In this document: positions 1 through 46,830 of the stretch, in pieces | How positions within the stretch are numbered: position 1 is the first letter of the stretch | How the letters are laid out: each line of letters starts with the position of its first letter | Assembly: GCF_020850895.1 (NCBI RefSeq) | Contig: NZ_JADZDS010000114.1 | Location: 1 to 48,652, forward strand | Origin: Thermomonas sp. | GTDB taxonomy: Bacteria > Pseudomonadota > Gammaproteobacteria > Xanthomonadales > Xanthomonadaceae | Length of the DNA: 48,652 nt | Reading direction: 5' to 3' | Translations under genes and position numbers: made by a program | Notes under the pieces: generated by a model | The model's database searches: none | Told to the model about the DNA's origin: nothing | Seen by the model: the letters and a program-made list of their open reading frames with translations, nothing else

Positions 1-180
1 CAGGCGGAAGCCGAGCGCGTTGCCGCAGAACAGGCGGAAGCCGAGCGCGTTGCCGCGGAACAGGCGGAAGCCGAGCGCGTTGCCGCGGAACAGGCGGAAG
101 CCGAGCGCGTTGCCGCGGAACAGGCGGAAGCCGAGCGCGTTGCCGCGGAACAGGCGGAAGCCGAGCGTGTTGCGGCAGAA
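1..180 (+). repeat. Six tandem 30-bp repeats inside pilL
   Basis: Six head-to-tail 30-base units begin at 1, 31, 61, 91, 121 and 151. Units two to five are identical; units one and six differ by one or a few bases. Each encodes the ten residues [10 protein letters not shown], so the array is in frame and adds a charged, helix-forming segment in front of the visible Hpt domain. Degenerate copies continue to about 390. The array may extend to the left of the window. Confidence 0.95.
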
Positions 181-2928
181 CAGGCTGCAGCGGCGGAAGC
201 GGCGCGTCTGGCCGCAGAGCGCGAGGAAGTCGAGCGCATTGCGGCGGCGCGTGCCGAAACCGAACGCCAGGAAGCCGCACGTGTGGCAGCCGAGCGGCGT
301 GAAGCCGAGAGGAAAGATGCCGAACGTCGCGCTGCCGAGTCGGCGGCGATCGCCAAGGCGCGCGAGGAGGCCGCACTGGCTGCCCTGCTCGCGACCGCGA
401 CTGCGGCCGAAGACCCGGATGCGCCACTCGATACCAGTGATCTGGACGTCGAGTTGCTCGACATTTTCATCGAGGAAGGCAACGACCTGCTCGATCACTC
501 CGATGGCCTGCTTGCGCAATTGCGTGACAACCAGGACGACAACGAGCTGATCGTCGGGCTGCAGCGCGACCTGCACACCTTCAAGGGTGGCGCGCGCATG
601 GCCGGCATGATGTCGGTCGGTGAGTTGGGCCATGCGATGGAATCGCTGTTGGAAGGCGTGGCCCTCCAGCGTGCAGAACTTGGTGGCGATGGCGTGAAGC
701 TGCTCGAACGCGGCTTCGATCGATTGCGCGACATGGTCACCCGCATCGCGGCACGCCGCGCTGTCGGCCTGCCGGCCATGCTGATCGAGGAGTTCGTTGC
801 GCGCTCCGAAAATCGAGTATTCGAAGCCCCGGAATCGGTTGCTCAGGCTCCCGCGGAAATCGAAACCGGAGGCGAAGCGGCGGCACCGGCAGATCTCGAA
901 TTGCCTGCAGCAGGAGCCGAGGCAACGTCGGAACGCGATACGGTTGCCGCGGTCGAATCTACCCCGGAGCCGGCACCTGAAAGCCAGCCCGAGGCAACGA
1001 GCGTCCCGGTGCCGAGCAGGGTTGCGGCGCTCAAGCCGTTGTCGGCACCGATCGAAGATCGCACGTTTGCCGCGGACGACGATGCCTCCGTGCGTGCGCC
1101 GCAGGAACAGGTGCGCATCCGCGCAGACTTGCTCGACCGGCTGGTGAATTACGCCGGCGAAGTGGCGATCTACCGTGCGCGTCTCGAACAGCAGCTTGCC
1201 GCCTTCCGCGCCACCGCGCAGGAAATGGAGCGCACCAACATCCGTTTGCGCGACCAGCTGCGTCGCCTCGACTCCGAGACCGAAGCGCAGATCATGGCGC
1301 GCTACCAGCGCCAGAACGACGCCGGCGACGAATCCTTCGATCCGCTGGAGCTGGACCGTTTCAGCACCCTGCAGCAGCTGTCGCGCGGCTTGGCCGAATC
1401 GGCCGCCGACTTGCAGAGCCTGCATGATTCGATGGACGACCTCACGCGCCAGTACGAGACGCTGCTGACGCAGCAGTCGCGCGTGAGCTCGGACCTGCAG
1501 GAAGGCCTCATGCGCACGCGCATGTTGCCGCTGGATTCGCTGCTGCCTCGGTTGCGCCGGGTGGTTCGCCAGTCGGCTGGCGAGACCGGCAAGCAGGCGG
1601 TGCTCAAGGTCGACGGTGCGCAGGGCGAACTCGATCGCAACGTGCTCGAGCGCATGACGGCACCGCTGGAGCACATGCTGCGCAACGCGGTGGCCCATGG
1701 CTTGGAGGCCCCGGACAAGCGTGCGCAGGCCGGGAAGTCCCTGGAAGGAGCGATCCGCATCGCGGTCCGCAACGAGGGATCGGAAGTCGTGCTCGAAGTG
1801 GGCGACGATGGCGCCGGCCTCAACCGCGAGGCGATCAGGGCACGTGCAGTCGACCGTGGGCTGATCCAGCCGGACACGGTGATGACCGATGCCGAACTCG
1901 ATCGCATGATCTTCGAGCCTGGCTTCTCAACCGCCGAGACGGTCAGCAGGCTCGCCGGTCGCGGCGTCGGCATGGACGTGGTGGCGAGCGAAGTCCGCCA
2001 ACTCGGTGGCTCGATCGAAATCCAGTCCAAGCTGGGCGAAGGCACCAACTTCGTCCTGCGCCTGCCGCAGATGCTGGCGGTGACCCAGGCAGTGTTCGTC
2101 AAGATCGGCGAAACCGAGTACGCGGTGCCAATTGCATCGGTTCGCGGCGTCGGTCGCATCCCGCGCGAAGACCTGGCAAAGCCGGACGCGGTGTATCGCT
2201 ACGGTGGCGAAGACTACGCGTTGCATGATCTCGGCGCGCTGGTCGGGGCACCGACGGCGAAGGCGGAAGGTCACTTGCAGATGCCGCTGCTGTTGATCGG
2301 TTCGGGTGAGTTGCGCGCGGCGGTGGCGATCGACCAGGTGGTCGGCAGTCGTGAAATCGTGGTCAAGGACGGCGGCCCGCAGCTGTCGTCCCTGCCTGGC
2401 GTGTTCGGTGCAACCATCATGGGCGATGGCCGCGTGGTCATCATCCTCGACATCGCGCCGATGGTGCGTCGCTACGCATCGATGGCCCACTTGGAGGCCC
2501 CGGTATCGGAGGCCCCGGCCGAAGACCAGCGCAAGGTTCCACTGGTCATGGTGGTGGACGACTCGGTCACCATGCGCAAGGTCAGCGGGCGCGTGCTGGA
2601 ACGCCATGGTTTCGAGGTGGCGACGGCGAAGGATGGCCTCGACGCGCTGGAGCACATGATCGATCTGGTTCCGGACCTGATGCTGCTCGATATCGAAATG
2701 CCGCGCATGGATGGCTACGAGTTGGCCACGGCGATGAAGGCGGATCCGCGTCTGCGCAACGTGCCGATCATCATGATCACCTCGCGCACCGGCGACAAAC
2801 ATCGCCAGCGCGCGGTCGACATCGGCGTCGAACGCTACCTCGGCAAGCCGTACCAGGAGGTCGAGCTGATGCGCAACGTGTTCGAGCTGCTCAAGCTGGA
2901 GCGCGTTGGCGACGGTAGCCTGCAATGA
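1..2928 (+). CDS. pilL: PilL/ChpA-type hybrid chemotaxis histidine kinase (3' part; 5' end outside window)
   Basis: The frame is open from base 1 to the TGA at 2926, so about 975 C-terminal residues are visible. Order seen: an Ala/Glu/Arg-rich repeat linker (residues 1-130), an Hpt domain with the phospho-accepting His near residue 192 ([11 protein letters not shown]), an acidic/proline linker, a CheA dimerisation region, a HATPase domain (N-box [11 protein letters not shown]-boxes DDGAGLN and GRGVGMDVV), a CheW-like domain and a C-terminal receiver (acidic pair in VVDDS near 853-854, phospho-Asp in LLDIEMP near 897, Lys in LGKPY). Proteins of this build phosphorylate regulators that control type IV pilus extension and twitching. 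The next gene overlaps by ATGA, so the chemosensory genes are probably one operon. Earlier Hpt domains, typical of the family, would lie left of the window. Confidence 0.93.
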
Positions 2929-8750: not shown

Positions 8751-9052
8751 GCAAAGGCTACTCAAGCTTCAGCGAGTTCTATGGTTTTTATCTGGGCCAG
8801 CATCGCAACCGCACCTGCCGGCGGCTGCATTTCTTCGGCACCAGCCTTTCCATCGGCTTCATCGTGCTGGCGGTCAAGGCTGCGAATCCATGGTGGCTGC
8901 TGGCATCAGTGGTCTGCGGCTATGCGTTTGCGTGGGTCGGGCATTTCTTCTTCGAGAAGAATCGTCCGGCCACGTTCAGGAACCCCTTCTATTCCTTCGC
9001 CGGCGACTGGGTGATGTACAAGGACATCTTGGTCGGACGGATTCCGTTCTAG
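8747..9052 (+). CDS. DUF962 (Mpo1-like) small membrane protein
   Basis: A 101-residue protein with a GTG start whose bases overlap the mazG stop (GTGA). It shows the DUF962/Mpo1-like pattern: FSEFYGFYLGQHRNRTCRRL with an early His, HFFGTSLSIGFIVLAV (first membrane helix), a second helix around WWLLASVVCGYAFAWV, then GHFFFEKNRPATFRNPFYSF and DWVMYKDI. The yeast relative Mpo1 is an iron-dependent dioxygenase acting on 2-hydroxy fatty acids; the conserved His residues are present here, but activity of the bacterial form is not established. It ends the nudE-cysQ-mazG run, and its stop lies 8 bases before a repeat region. Confidence 0.85.
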   Translation: MSKGYSSFSEFYGFYLGQHRNRTCRRLHFFGTSLSIGFIVLAVKAANPWWLLASVVCGYAFAWVGHFFFEKNRPATFRNPFYSFAGDWVMYKDILVGRIPF

Positions 9053-9205
9053 GGCTCACGCGAATCAATCACCCGCATGATTGATTCGTGGCCCGCCATC
9101 CTTGGCGGGCGGGCGCTGTCTGGGGCTGCACTGAACAAGTCCATCCGGGGCTTGTCAGCGGCCGACCGGCCATGGTCGGTAGACAACGCCAAATTAAGCG
9201 TTGCC
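9053..9205 (+). repeat. Multi-hairpin intergenic repeat, copy 1 (order C-D-A-B)
   Basis: At least five inverted repeats are packed here. C: stem 9061-9070/9079-9088, ten perfect pairs. D: 9091-9097/9104-9110, seven pairs with loop ATCCTT. A: 9135-9142/9148-9155, eight pairs including one G-U, loop ATCCG. B: CCGACC 9162-9167/GGTCGG 9174-9179, followed by GTAG overlapping the stem end. A fifth: CAACGC 9184-9189/GCGTTG 9198-9203. Related sets occur near 42650 and 46246. No gene is visible, and no T-tract follows any stem, so these are not classical terminators. Confidence 0.85.
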
Positions 9206-9305
9206 CTGGGCCAGTGCTGCCCTGGGCGGTGACGGGATGTCCCTTCACGCAGCTTCGACCATGGAGGCAGCATCCTGCAGGGACAGGGACGCCGGGACGA
9301 CACGC

Positions 9306-41896: not shown

Positions 41897-42651
41897 TCCG
41901 CAGGACGCTGGCAGTTGTCGCGCTGGCGATTGTGCTGGTCTATCTTGCGATCTGCGGCCTGCTCTACGTCTCGCAGCGCGGCTACCTGTACTTCCCGGTG
42001 CCGCGCCAAGGCAATGCGCCTGCCTTCGTCCTGCACCGCGGCGATGCCGATGTGGTCGTCTCCACCAACGGCGTGGACAGCCCAGCCGCCGTGCTTTTTT
42101 TCGGCGGCAATGCCGAGGACGTCTCGCAGGCAATTCCGCTGCTGACGCGTGCGTTCCCCGGCCGCGCCGTCTTCGCGATGCACTACCGGAGTTATGGCGG
42201 CAGCACGGGGCAGCCGTCCGAGGTGGCGCTGGTGGCAGATGGCAAGCGTCTGTTCGACCTGCTGGCGAAGGAGCATCCGTCGATGGTGCTGGTCGGTCGC
42301 AGCCTCGGCAGCGGGATTGCCCTGCAGGTGGCCGTTGGTCGACGCGTCGAGCATCTGGTGCTGGTGACGCCCTACGACAGCATCTCCGGCCTGGCGCAGC
42401 AGCGTTTCCCGCTGTTCCCGGTGCGCTGGATCCTGCGGGACACCTACGAATCCTGGCGCTACGCTGCAAAGATCCACGTGCCGACCACCTTGGTCGTTGC
42501 TGGCCGCGACGAAGTCATCCCCAACACGAGTTCGCGACTGTTGGCCTCCCGATTCCCGCGCGGCGTTGCCAGCATCGTCACGTTTGCCGACGCCAACCAC
42601 AACGACATCTCGGGTTTCGATGGCTATGCCGATGCCTTGGGTCAACGCTGA
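41893..42651 (+). CDS. Membrane-anchored alpha/beta hydrolase
   Basis: A 252-residue protein with one N-terminal helix (TLAVVALAIVLVYLAICGLL) and a hydrolase domain of the type found near BEM46/ABHD13: VLFFGGNAEDVS, YRSYGGSTGQPSE, the nucleophile elbow LVGRSLGSGIAL, the acid in VAGRDEVIP and a His in DANHNDISG. ATG 41893 overlaps the pntAa stop by four bases; ATG 41884 is possible. Coupling to pntAa suggests co-expression, but no link to transhydrogenase is known to me. Its TGA is inside the first hairpin element of the following repeat region. Confidence 0.85.
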   Translation: MIRRTLAVVALAIVLVYLAICGLLYVSQRGYLYFPVPRQGNAPAFVLHRGDADVVVSTNGVDSPAAVLFFGGNAEDVSQAIPLLTRAFPGRAVFAMHYRSYGGSTGQPSEVALVADGKRLFDLLAKEHPSMVLVGRSLGSGIALQVAVGRRVEHLVLVTPYDSISGLAQQRFPLFPVRWILRDTYESWRYAAKIHVPTTLVVAGRDEVIPNTSSRLLASRFPRGVASIVTFADANHNDISGFDGYADALGQR

Positions 42652-42974
42652 ACAAGTCCATCCAGGACTTGTCCAGCATTGCCTGAATTTCGGTGTTGCC
42701 CTGGCCGGGCGGCGCCGCTAACGCAGGGTAGAACAATCCTATCCAGGCGTTGTCAGCCCGCGTCGAGTCGGGTGAGGGTTCCGACTCGACCCACACGAAT
42801 CCCTCGCTCGCATGATTGATTCTTGCTCGCCAACCATCCATGGCTGGCGAGAACATCTGGATTGATCAGGGGTTCCCGAGCCAAGGCAAGCCATCACCCG
42901 CGTCGGCCCGGACCGGGGTGGATCAAGCTCAGGCCTTCCGCGTTTCGGATGCAAGGATGCCCAGATGGGGACGG
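42652..42974 (+). repeat. Gene-free region with multi-hairpin repeat, copy 2 (order A-A'-B-C-D)
   Basis: A: 42652-42659/42665-42672, eight perfect pairs, loop ATCCA. A': a worn copy from 42732 (GAACAATCCTATCCAGG...TTGTCAG). B: 42762-42771/42781-42790, ten perfect pairs. C: left arm decayed, right arm CGCATGATTGATTC (42810-42823) identical to copy 1. D: CTCGCCA 42826-42832/TGGCGAG 42845-42851. Sixteen bases (CTGAACAAGTCCATCC) are shared with copy 1. Beyond 42875 no further gene or clear structure is seen up to the DUF3106 stop at 42975. Confidence 0.85.
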
Positions 42975-44521: not shown

Positions 44522-44818
44522 GTGGACGACGGATTCGTGGCCTTGTACATCTTCATGCTGGCGGCCATCGCCGGCAACGTGATCATCTCGAGGGTGCCGG
44601 TGATCCTGCACACGCCGTTGATGTCCGGTTCCAACTTCATCCACGGCATCGTCCTGATCGGCGCGATGGTGGTGCTGGGGCAGGCGGTGACACCGCTGGA
44701 GCAAGGCCTGGGCTTCCTCGCCGTCCTGCTCGGTGCCGGCAATGCCGCCGGCGGCTACGTGGTCACCGAACGCATGCTCGAGATGTTCAAGTCCAGCAAG
44801 AAGGAGGGTGGGAAGTGA
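44522..44818 (+). CDS. pntAb: NAD(P) transhydrogenase subunit alpha, part 2 (PntAb)
   Basis: The small membrane subunit of the three-gene transhydrogenase (98 residues, about three helices). DDGFVALYIFMLAAIAGNVI, VPVILHTPLMSGSNFIHGIV and NAAGGYVVTERML are typical. It starts with GTG at 44522, supported by GGGAG seven bases upstream. The stop overlaps the pntB start (GTGA). It lies apart from pntAa, so it must have its own promoter in the 146 bases shared with the divergent sigma gene. Confidence 0.94.
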   Translation: MDDGFVALYIFMLAAIAGNVIISRVPVILHTPLMSGSNFIHGIVLIGAMVVLGQAVTPLEQGLGFLAVLLGAGNAAGGYVVTERMLEMFKSSKKEGGK

Positions 44819-46236
44819 GCCCGCTCGCCCTGATCAAGCTGAGTTATTTCGTTGCCGCAACCCTGCTGTTGCTGGGGCTGCAGCGCATGGCCAGCCCCAA
44901 GACCGCGCGCAGCGGCATCCAGTGGGCGGGCGTCGGCGTGCTGGTGGCGGTCGTCGCCACCTTCTTCCTGCCGGGGATGCACAACCTGCCGCTGCTGCTG
45001 GCGGCGATCATCCTGGGCGTGGCCGGCAACTGGTACTGGGGCCGCAAGGTGCCGATCACCGACATGCCGCAGATGGTGGCCTTGTTCAATGGCATGGGCG
45101 GCGGCAGCGCGGCGGCGATCGGTGCGATCGAGCTGTGGAAGGCGATCGCCATGGACCACCGGCCGACCGCCGTGCACCTTGGTCTCGCCGCGGTGGGTGC
45201 GCTGATCGGCGCGGTTTCGCTGACCGGCTCGGTCATTGCCTGGGCCAAGCTCGATGGCCGCATGGACAAGCGCTACACCTTCCCCGGCCAGCAATGGTTC
45301 AACGCGCTGGTGTTCCTGGCCGCGCTCGCGGCGGGTGGGCTCGCGTTGTGGGGCCTGCTTGCCGGTGGCTTCGAGGCACTGCAACTGACCGGCTTTGCGG
45401 TGATCGGGTTCTTCGCGCTGGCACTGCTGCTGGGCATCCTGATGACGTTGCCCATCGGCGGCGCCGACATGCCGGTGGTGATCTCGCTGTACAACGCCTT
45501 CACCGGGTTGGCGGTCGCGTTCGAGGGCTATGTGCTGGGGAATGAAGCCCTGATCATCGCTGGCATGATGGTCGGCGCGGCCGGCATGCTGCTGACGCGG
45601 TTGATGGCCAAGGCGATGAACCGCTCGATCAAGAACGTGCTGTTCTCCAACTTCGGCGGCGGCTCGGCGGCGATGCAGGAAATCGGCGGTTCGATGAAGC
45701 CGATCGAGGCCGCCGACGTGGCCTCGATGATGGCCTTTGCCGAGCGCGTGGTGATCGTGCCCGGTTACGGCATGGCGGTGGCCCAGGCCCAGCACAAGAT
45801 CTGGGAGCTGTGCCAGCGCCTGATCGCACGCGGCGTCAAGGTGAAATTCGCCATCCATCCGGTCGCCGGGCGCATGCCTGGGCACATGAACGTGCTGCTG
45901 GCCGAGGCCGGCGTGCCCTACGACCTGATCGCCGACATGGACGACATCAATCCGGAGTTCGCGATGACCGACGTCTCCCTGGTGATCGGCGCCAACGACG
46001 TGGTCAACCCGGTGGCCAAGACCGATCCGGCCAGCCCGATCTACGGCATGCCGATCCTCGACGTGGTCAACTCCAAGAACACCATCGTCATCAAGCGCGG
46101 CAAGGGCACCGGGTTTGCCGGGATCGAAAACGCGCTGTTCTACGCCGACAACACCCGCATGCTCTACGGCGATGGCGCCGAGATGGCGAACGCACTGGTC
46201 AGCGAGTTGAAGGAACTGGATGGCGGCGGGCATTGA
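44815..46236 (+). CDS. pntB: NAD(P) transhydrogenase subunit beta PntB
   Basis: PntB carries the main proton channel and the NADP(H)-binding domain III. The 473 residues contain about nine membrane helices (ALIKLSYFVAATLLLLGLQ first), MPQMVALFNGMGGGSAA, SGSxI-like SLTGSVIAW, and the NADP domain VIVPGYGMAVAQAQHKIWEL, followed by VKFAIHPVAGRMPGHMNVLL, IGANDVVNPVAKTDP and IVIKRGKGTGFAGIENALFY. The start is GTG 44815 with AAGGAGGG upstream; the frame is open earlier only as a shadow of pntAb. A repeat region follows nine bases after its stop. Confidence 0.96.
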   Translation: MSPLALIKLSYFVAATLLLLGLQRMASPKTARSGIQWAGVGVLVAVVATFFLPGMHNLPLLLAAIILGVAGNWYWGRKVPITDMPQMVALFNGMGGGSAAAIGAIELWKAIAMDHRPTAVHLGLAAVGALIGAVSLTGSVIAWAKLDGRMDKRYTFPGQQWFNALVFLAALAAGGLALWGLLAGGFEALQLTGFAVIGFFALALLLGILMTLPIGGADMPVVISLYNAFTGLAVAFEGYVLGNEALIIAGMMVGAAGMLLTRLMAKAMNRSIKNVLFSNFGGGSAAMQEIGGSMKPIEAADVASMMAFAERVVIVPGYGMAVAQAQHKIWELCQRLIARGVKVKFAIHPVAGRMPGHMNVLLAEAGVPYDLIADMDDINPEFAMTDVSLVIGANDVVNPVAKTDPASPIYGMPILDVVNSKNTIVIKRGKGTGFAGIENALFYADNTRMLYGDGAEMANALVSELKELDGGGH

Positions 46237-46245
46237 AGTTTCGCG

Positions 46246-46360
46246 GACAAGCCCATCCAGGGCTGGTCAGTTCACGCCACGTCCGGTCCATGCCCGGACG
46301 TGGCGCTCACGAAGCAATCACTTGCGTGATTGCTTCGTGGTCGGCCATCCATGGCCGACG
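46246..46360 (+). repeat. Multi-hairpin repeat, copy 3 (order A-B-C-D)
   Basis: A: 46247-46254/46260-46267, loop ATCCA, one mismatch. B: 46276-46286/46294-46304, eleven perfect pairs. C: 46308-46321/46326-46339, fourteen perfect pairs around TTGC. D: 46340-46346/46353-46359, seven pairs, loop ATCCAT. The set sits between the convergent ends of pntB and the next gene, and C and D overlap the 3' end of that gene. No T-tracts. Confidence 0.85.
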
Positions 46361-46830
46361 GGCAAGGTTGCCGTTGACCTGAGCCCGGACAGCAGGGCCA
46401 GCACCAGGCTCGCGCCGTACCAGAGCAGGTCCGTGCGGGTATTGGCCATGCTCACCAGCAGCCACGCGTAGCTTGCACCCATGCGCAAGGCCGATTCGAG
46501 CGGCCGCAGGCCAAAATCCTGGCCGATCTGGCCCGCGGCGATCAAGAAATTGGCCAGCACGATCACGGCTGCGGTGGTCAGCACGGCGGTCAGCCCGCGG
46601 TGCAGGCCGCGTGGCCAATTGACCAAGCGCTGCAGCACGGCCAGATCGAACGCGCCCAGCAACGCCATCCACGCGAGTTGGTTATCGAATCGCAAGGCCA
46701 ACAGAACCCAGGCCGCCGCGAATCCCGTCGCACCCAGCAACAGCAAGGCCCAGGCATGCCAGCGAACGGTGGGCGGGGCGATCGAGGGCATGGGCGACGC
46801 GCTGGAAGACGGTCGATGATGCCATTCCAT
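46318..46830 (-). CDS. Hypothetical membrane protein
   Basis: A 170-residue protein with about four membrane helices: WALLLLGATGFAAAWVLLAL, a middle pair around LTAVLTTAAVIVLANFLIAA, and SLVLALLSGLR near the C-terminus. I do not recognise a family. The last twelve residues (GHGWPTTKQSRK) are encoded by hairpins D and C of the repeat region, so the natural C-terminus may have been replaced by repeat sequence. ATG 46830 is the most likely start, although its ribosome binding site is weak; ATG 46791 and TTG 46845 are alternatives. Confidence 0.6.
   Translation of the reverse strand: MEWHHRPSSSASPMPSIAPPTVRWHAWALLLLGATGFAAAWVLLALRFDNQLAWMALLGAFDLAVLQRLVNWPRGLHRGLTAVLTTAAVIVLANFLIAAGQIGQDFGLRPLESALRMGASYAWLLVSMANTRTDLLWYGASLVLALLSGLRSTATLPVGHGWPTTKQSRK

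Follow-up and report, generated by a model that had tools for sequence, protein, structure and literature searches.

Three papers (PMC3733652, PMC10969869, PMC5896051) describe bacterial MITEs as short non-coding elements with terminal repeats and hairpins that are mobilised in trans. The families closest to the element reported here are ERIC, Correia/NEMIS, RUP, QMITE1/2, Nezha and Chunjie. Like it, they are short, non-coding and mostly intergenic, and have terminal inverted repeats, target duplication and strong hairpins; they are mobilised in trans, as we propose for the element. Unlike them, the element forms five separate consecutive hairpins, folds each inverted repeat on itself and has conserved loops, and it retains one architecture over several orders, and in more than one class, with ends that differ; this comparison was made with descriptions of the families. 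MITEs are usually seen as short-lived derivatives of one insertion sequence.

Three further systems share features with the element. REP/BIME sequences with RAYT are, as the element is, dispersed extragenic palindromes; PMC3733652 gives a REP unit of 20–40 bp, against about 155 bp here. IS5-family insertion sequences share terminal repeats and the type of 4-bp duplication with the element resident in their genome, but are 1.1–1.3 kb long and carry a transposase, and the stretch in common with the element is the end, about 14–19 bp. Members of this family duplicate YTAR. CsrB/RsmZ-type RNAs have A(N)GGA hairpin loops similar to those on the bottom strand of the element, which differs from them in having two GGA hairpins only, long stems and a transposable carrier.

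We analysed a window of 48,652 nucleotides from a Thermomonas sp. (contig NZ_JADZDS010000114.1), in which a first-pass annotation had noticed three intergenic regions with the same four types of hairpin. These hairpins very probably belong to a MITE superfamily: a non-autonomous, five-hairpin element of ~155 bp, moved in trans by IS5-family transposases and duplicating YTAR, with a shape that some loop-reading factor would preserve. The assignment rests on several lines of sequence evidence: the copies with their termini and duplications, insertion sequences whose ends match, an empty site at one locus, insertion at stop codons, and the covariation of stems and conservation of loops. MITEs with hairpins are an already known kind of element (PMC10969869, PMC5896051).

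Architecture of the element

The hairpins are segments of a single element of ~155 bp in the order A-B-C-D-E. This fixed order was seen from the contexts of type A matches at loci of the same genome. The outer hairpins, A and E, contain the terminal inverted repeats, and the element is flanked by 4-bp YTAR target duplications; in the genome G009 the repeats are GGACGGTCTGAACAAC and GGAACCTCTGAACAAC (13 of 16 positions matching), and the ends vary by subfamily. By arithmetic, ~155 bp allows at most about 51 codons. The common form in the Thermomonas genome has a terminus near GGCAATGCTGA, followed by A, B, C, D and E, and an end near TCAGCGTTGCC. Its loops are ATCC or CTCC in A, TTCG or TTGC in C and ATCC in D, and the core of B is GTCCGG-loop-CCGGAC. 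A second subfamily ends near TCAGAGGTTCC.

Five copies, whole or partial, are present in the window, all on the + strand. Copy 1 (9053–9112) is a remnant with C (9061–9088) and D (9091–9110), which starts right after a TAG stop codon (9050–9052) lying in CTAG. Copy 2 (9124–9205) has A (9135–9155), D (9162–9179) and E (9182–9205) and lacks B and C; CTGG is duplicated at 9120–9123 and 9206–9209. Copy 3 (42640–42700) consists of A (42652–42672) and a degenerate 3' end, with CTTG and CTGG as flanks. Copy 4 (42722–42876) belongs to a subfamily with a TTCC-type right end. It contains a degenerate A, B (42762–42790), C (about 42796–42825), D (42826–42851) and E (about 42852–42876), and its flanks are CTAA and CGAG (two of four bases alike). 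Copy 5 (46237–46373) has A (46247–46267), B (46275–46305), C (46308–46339), D (46340–46359) and a remnant of E to 46373. Its left duplication, TTGA at 46233–46236, overlaps the TGA stop codon of the gene immediately upstream (44815–46236, + strand), which we take from reading its protein to be pntB-like; the right TTGA is at 46374–46377. A covariance model built from 12 copies of this genome (R1) matches copy 4 at 42720–42878 with 110.9 bits and copy 5 at 46236–46374 with 125.9 bits.

The first-pass annotation was thus correct about the hairpins that it described, and its grouping needs revision. The region 9053–9205 lacks B, and a fifth hairpin, E, exists at the 3' end of the element. What had been read as three sets is a C-D remnant and an A-D-E copy at 9053–9205, two copies at 42640–42876, and copy 5. 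The single reading direction is true of the window, but copies occur on both strands of the genome. As a further amendment, the TGA stop codon (42649–42651) of the + strand gene at copy 3 is supplied by the element itself.

Folding of the three regions exceeds chance, with z scores of −5.5, −4.3 and −10.7 (100 dinucleotide shuffles each). Whole hairpins are missing from some copies: B and C from copy 2, C and D from two other loci (L017, L019) and B from a third (L021). At the left edge of the window (1–210) there is an apparently coding tandem repeat with a 30-bp unit, CAGGCGGAAGCCGAGCGCGTTGCCGCGGAA.

Copy number and covariation

The dispersed family that had been suspected from the window is real. 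With up to three mismatches, the type A pattern has 17 matches per strand in the genome (2.53 Mb), four near-palindromic places being counted on both strands and one match (L016) looking coding; the reversed pattern has 0 and 0. R1 gave 106 rows at E ≤ 0.1 on this genome, among them places that recur as reverse-strand shadows. The loci fetched for about the best 75 of these rows, 69 sources from this genome, yielded 74 matches at E ≤ 1e−6.

The 12 copies behind R1 were aligned without structure, and the structure was written from those same copies. In this alignment 22 of 53 pairs have both sides changed, compared with 9.5 ± 2.0 in shuffles, in agreement with the earlier observation that the stems change in both arms together. 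The same trend is found in an alignment of 27 diverse copies from many genomes, which was fitted to the structure of R1 and so favours pairing: pairing reaches 94.4% of cells, both sides have changed in 41 of 53 pairs (27.9 ± 2.2 in shuffles), and covariation amounts to 264 cells (shuffles 71.9 ± 6.2). When partners were slid by 1–3 columns, pairing dropped to 26–40%. A second covariance model (R2) was built from this alignment. The search of the genome and its relatives that the first-pass annotation had proposed was run with such models, and further copies and covariation were found.

Tandem expansion may occur in some copies: two elements of G026 (L248, L250) follow each other head to tail, linked by GTATTTGC, and their starts are separated by 254 bp. 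In G017 (L063, 1501–1679) one repeat is nested in another, with a palindrome like CCCTTCGTCAAGCTCAGGGCGGG placed in the hairpin B loop.

Target duplications and an empty site

The consensus of the target duplication is YTAR. In the Thermomonas genome, the 4-bp flanks of the 44 of 74 matches with both ends intact show 109 identities out of 176, compared with 81.7 ± 5.4 in permutations, none of 10000 reaching 109. Exact duplications are found in only 3 of these 44 copies. The mismatches are mostly in the two central bases; at the outer bases the fraction of copies in agreement is 0.73 and 0.82. Among relatives, 90 of 100 matches were kept, after six reverse-strand shadows, two weak extra matches, L072 and L073 were dropped. 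Exact 4-bp duplications flank 44 of the 74 of these that could be placed (the ends of 10 G035 copies were not placed); the cross-pair control gives 0.147 of 872. A duplication mechanism with mismatched centres was considered for the central-base mismatches of the Thermomonas copies. Since many copies in relatives are exact, ageing of the duplications is the simpler explanation, although not a proven one.

One locus, the 3' end of pntB, was used for an empty-site comparison. In 14 of 14 relatives read, from 80 loci, the pntB stop codon is directly followed by other sequence, which in several is close to the right flank of copy 5. Behind pntB the models have no match in any of the 80 named loci; a few of these loci stop shortly after the gene.

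The duplications bear on the earlier suggestion of a REP/BIME-like family, that is, short palindromes spread by a RAYT (Y1) transposase. The repeats are indeed intergenic, palindromic and dispersed, and the genome has one Y1_Tnp gene. However, there is no element copy around this sole Y1 (RAYT-like) gene (best R2 score 8.1 bits, own genome only), which answers the proposed check for a REP-associated transposase. The terminal inverted repeats, the 4-bp duplications, the length near 155 bp and the insertion sequences with the same ends also argue against such a family; we know of no target duplication at REPs. We consider this explanation extremely improbable. The Y1 transposase of this genome (L028, G000:C22:43221-43556) lies between the inverted flanks GGGGTCAGAGTCATTGATTT and AATCAATGACTCTGACCC, a different type of repeat.

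Insertion sequences with the same ends

Transposases of the PF01609 type were found in four of seven genomes searched. G026 contains an insertion sequence of 1223 bp (L276) in 13 near-identical copies. It ends in GGAGGGTCTGAACAAGTC, as the G026 element does, and its duplication is of the same type (the left end was read in two copies and the right in all thirteen). In G009 an insertion sequence of 1160 bp has the ends GGAAGGTCTGAACA, which match the G009 element, and TTAG on both sides. The insertion sequence of G034 (1295 bp, TGTTGAGAA-type ends, CTAG on both sides) matches at its ends the G034 element, in which these are quite different. All three transposases score above the cut-off of NF033581 (IS5 family). 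Judged by these ends, an IS5-family partner of the element is clear in G026, G009 and G034. Such partners are probably present also in G345 and G301, where the end matches are less secure (in G345, two of three loci tried, with different left ends). The Thermomonas genome has a contig-truncated copy ending in ACTTGTTCAGACCTTCC-CTAA.

The picture is uneven elsewhere. Of 16 element-bearing genomes, only five pass the NF033581 cut-off and seven have no match to this model (G006, G008, G036, G054, G432, G449, G333). In G481, G186 and G370 the element copy that was read has other ends than the insertion sequences found. Some plasmid matches are annotated as IS5-like ISPa16.

Distribution across genomes

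R1 matched 18 of 41 genomes, including that of the window, and none of 13 among 24 relatives of the same genus. Genomes with an R2 match number 37 of the 200 searched from the order, 41 of 274 from the class and 40 of 398 from the phylum; of these last 40, one family outside the class accounts for 30. The per-genome match counts in these overlapping samples are lower bounds, from the best 15, 11 and 7 scored candidates, respectively. In the order search, G140, from another genus of the same family, was matched and 19 other listed genomes of this kind were not. Around pntB, 80 loci (1.5 Mb) gave one clear match with R1 and R2, L111 from a Lysobacter MAG, and two weak ones with R2. The element is patchy, given the few matches among the pntB loci of named relatives.

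Read by eye, 31 of 33 loci of one set and eight further loci are much alike in hairpin order and length and mostly alike in loops; the stems, ends and GC content of the same loci differ. GC content among matches ranges from 37 to 70%. Plasmid records had no match for three element queries (G026, G345, G034), and phage records had none for one (G009). The first-pass annotation could not name the hairpin array, and Rfam offers no name either, with no match at the gathering score (six sources) or at E ≤ 0.1 (eight sources). A literature search covering few subscription journals found no published description of the element.

Position relative to genes

Genes were called with a simple codon-usage caller. 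The caller failed on G034, which was excluded; 20 copies at locus edges were set aside (one from the Thermomonas genome, nine from G026 and all ten from G034). None of 153 copies outside G034 lies inside a called gene, including none of 74 in the Thermomonas genome. In raw counts, a stop codon at or in the duplication was found at 19 of 82 adjoining 3' gene ends in this genome, 10 of 39 in other Thermomonas, 3 of 18 in G026, 4 of 14 in G036 and 0 of 9 in G035. Insertion at stop codons thus appears to be frequent. It follows from the choice of target, since YTAR contains TAA or TAG. A clear stop-codon insertion is seen at L005/L202 (G000:C10:25955), where a copy occupies the CTAG of a gene that ends in ...DDIPF-stop, an SSB-like C-terminus.

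The upstream gene reads into the 5' end of the element in 51 of 73 copies of the Thermomonas genome (p = 0.0009). The same orientation is weaker or mixed in other sets (22:11, 10:7, 4:6 and 7:3), with a total of 94 of 143 over five sets. This preference would suit hairpins that are kept as top-strand RNA in 3' untranslated regions, where copies used by the host protect or end the upstream transcript; the first-pass annotation had raised such protective RNA ends. Against it, top-strand G.T is not favoured over A.C in any of three counts (133:158, 75:108, 30:50). Selection on the top-strand RNA finds no support in these mismatches and was rejected on them. Folding is better for the bottom strand in 45 of 50 sequences (stems alone, 33 versus 10; these are related sequences, not 50 independent cases), and no element stands at the pntB site in the relatives read. 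Upkeep of the hairpins as top-strand RNA is, in our estimate, very unlikely.

Loops and the reading factor

Loop conservation, also noted from the window, was measured on 50 sequences from 47 genomes (G000, G035 and G036 twice each). The stems have a mean entropy of 0.9–1.1 bits per column. In loop A the bases TCC have 0, 0.38 and 0.24 bits, with neighbours at 1.71 and 1.27; in loop D they have 0.14, 0 and 0.38 bits, with a neighbour at 1.78. TCC is thus nearly fixed in both loops. Among the resident copies of the Thermomonas genome, TCC loops are less diverged than the average, in small numbers (0–0.12 versus 0.122 in type 1, 0–0.17 versus 0.209 in type 3).

These columns bear on the possibility that stem pairing is kept without selection, via template-switch correction of DNA quasi-palindromes. 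With hairpin C left aside, G.T and A.C occur in near-equal numbers (106:91, 54:50, 22:24), as a process insensitive to RNA wobble would produce. Such correction leaves unexplained the TCC columns (0–0.38 bits) beside neighbours of 1.3–1.8 bits and stems near 1.0, and we regard it as unlikely. Alternatively, the transposase or a host factor could read the loops and hairpins as folded single-stranded DNA during transposition. In the subfamilies read, hairpins A and E contain the inverted repeats, and there is no clear RNA wobble signal except in hairpin C, both of which would fit. The IS5 sequences that share the ends have, by eye, no adjacent A loop, so the transposase does not seem to need it. 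We hold this reading to be rather doubtful.

On the bottom strand, the conserved bases form GGA. In loop A, 29 of 50 sequences have CAGGA(U/A/C)G and 46 of 50 contain GGA; loop D reads ANGGA in 46 of 50; both loops have a GGA motif in 44 of 50. Loop C reads C-GNRA-G in 29 of 50. PMC7652899 describes CAGGA(U/A/C)G repeats in CsrB, placed in the loops of hairpins or in other unpaired stretches, and an ANGGAN hexaloop in RsmE targets, and states that a very stable structure may disfavour CsrA binding. In PMC4005645, ANGGAX on a stem is the high-affinity form, and binding is weaker with N omitted. The fit to the CsrA motifs extends to which bases are free, and the match was made post hoc. The strand co-directional with the upstream gene tends to be the top strand, not the GGA strand. 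A CsrA gene was found in 36 of 37 genomes searched (not in G086), including five Thermomonas with no R1 matches; its presence does not discriminate, because it is found with or without the element.

Wobble pairs show a weak excess for the bottom strand (A.C:G.T 50:30, p = 0.033). Hairpin C alone gives 26:8, with one pair at 10:0 that recurs in several families. We treat the excess as weak because the ratio without hairpin C is 24:22; by pair count it is even, with 12 pairs having A.C only and 12 G.T only.

Tentatively, the element may carry CsrB/RsmZ-like hairpins on its bottom strand, with an ANGGAX hexaloop in D and AGGAX in A, ~90–100 nt apart. It could then be a mobile CsrA/RsmA decoy or response module, in which a B-C-D core is re-framed by different IS5 ends across lineages and scattered behind host genes. 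We put this forward as a possibility suggested by the motifs.

Conclusion

In the MITE reading that we prefer, an IS5-family transposase with the same terminal repeats would move the element in trans. Insertion would duplicate a 4-bp YTAR target, often one holding a TAA or TAG stop codon; the gene would be left intact, with the hairpins set just behind it. Some loop-reading factor would keep the shape of the element, and the likeliest candidate would be a CsrA/RsmA-type protein on the GGA loops of the bottom-strand RNA.

The stop-codon target offers a simple account of harmless insertion. One five-hairpin design of ~155 bp recurs in Gammaproteobacteria and beyond despite differing ends, stems and composition. 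A core with differing ends, nearly fixed loop bases and compensating stems suggests selection on something besides the ends. Were the loops to bind CsrA/RsmA, sites of post-transcriptional control would be spread behind genes by mobile DNA.
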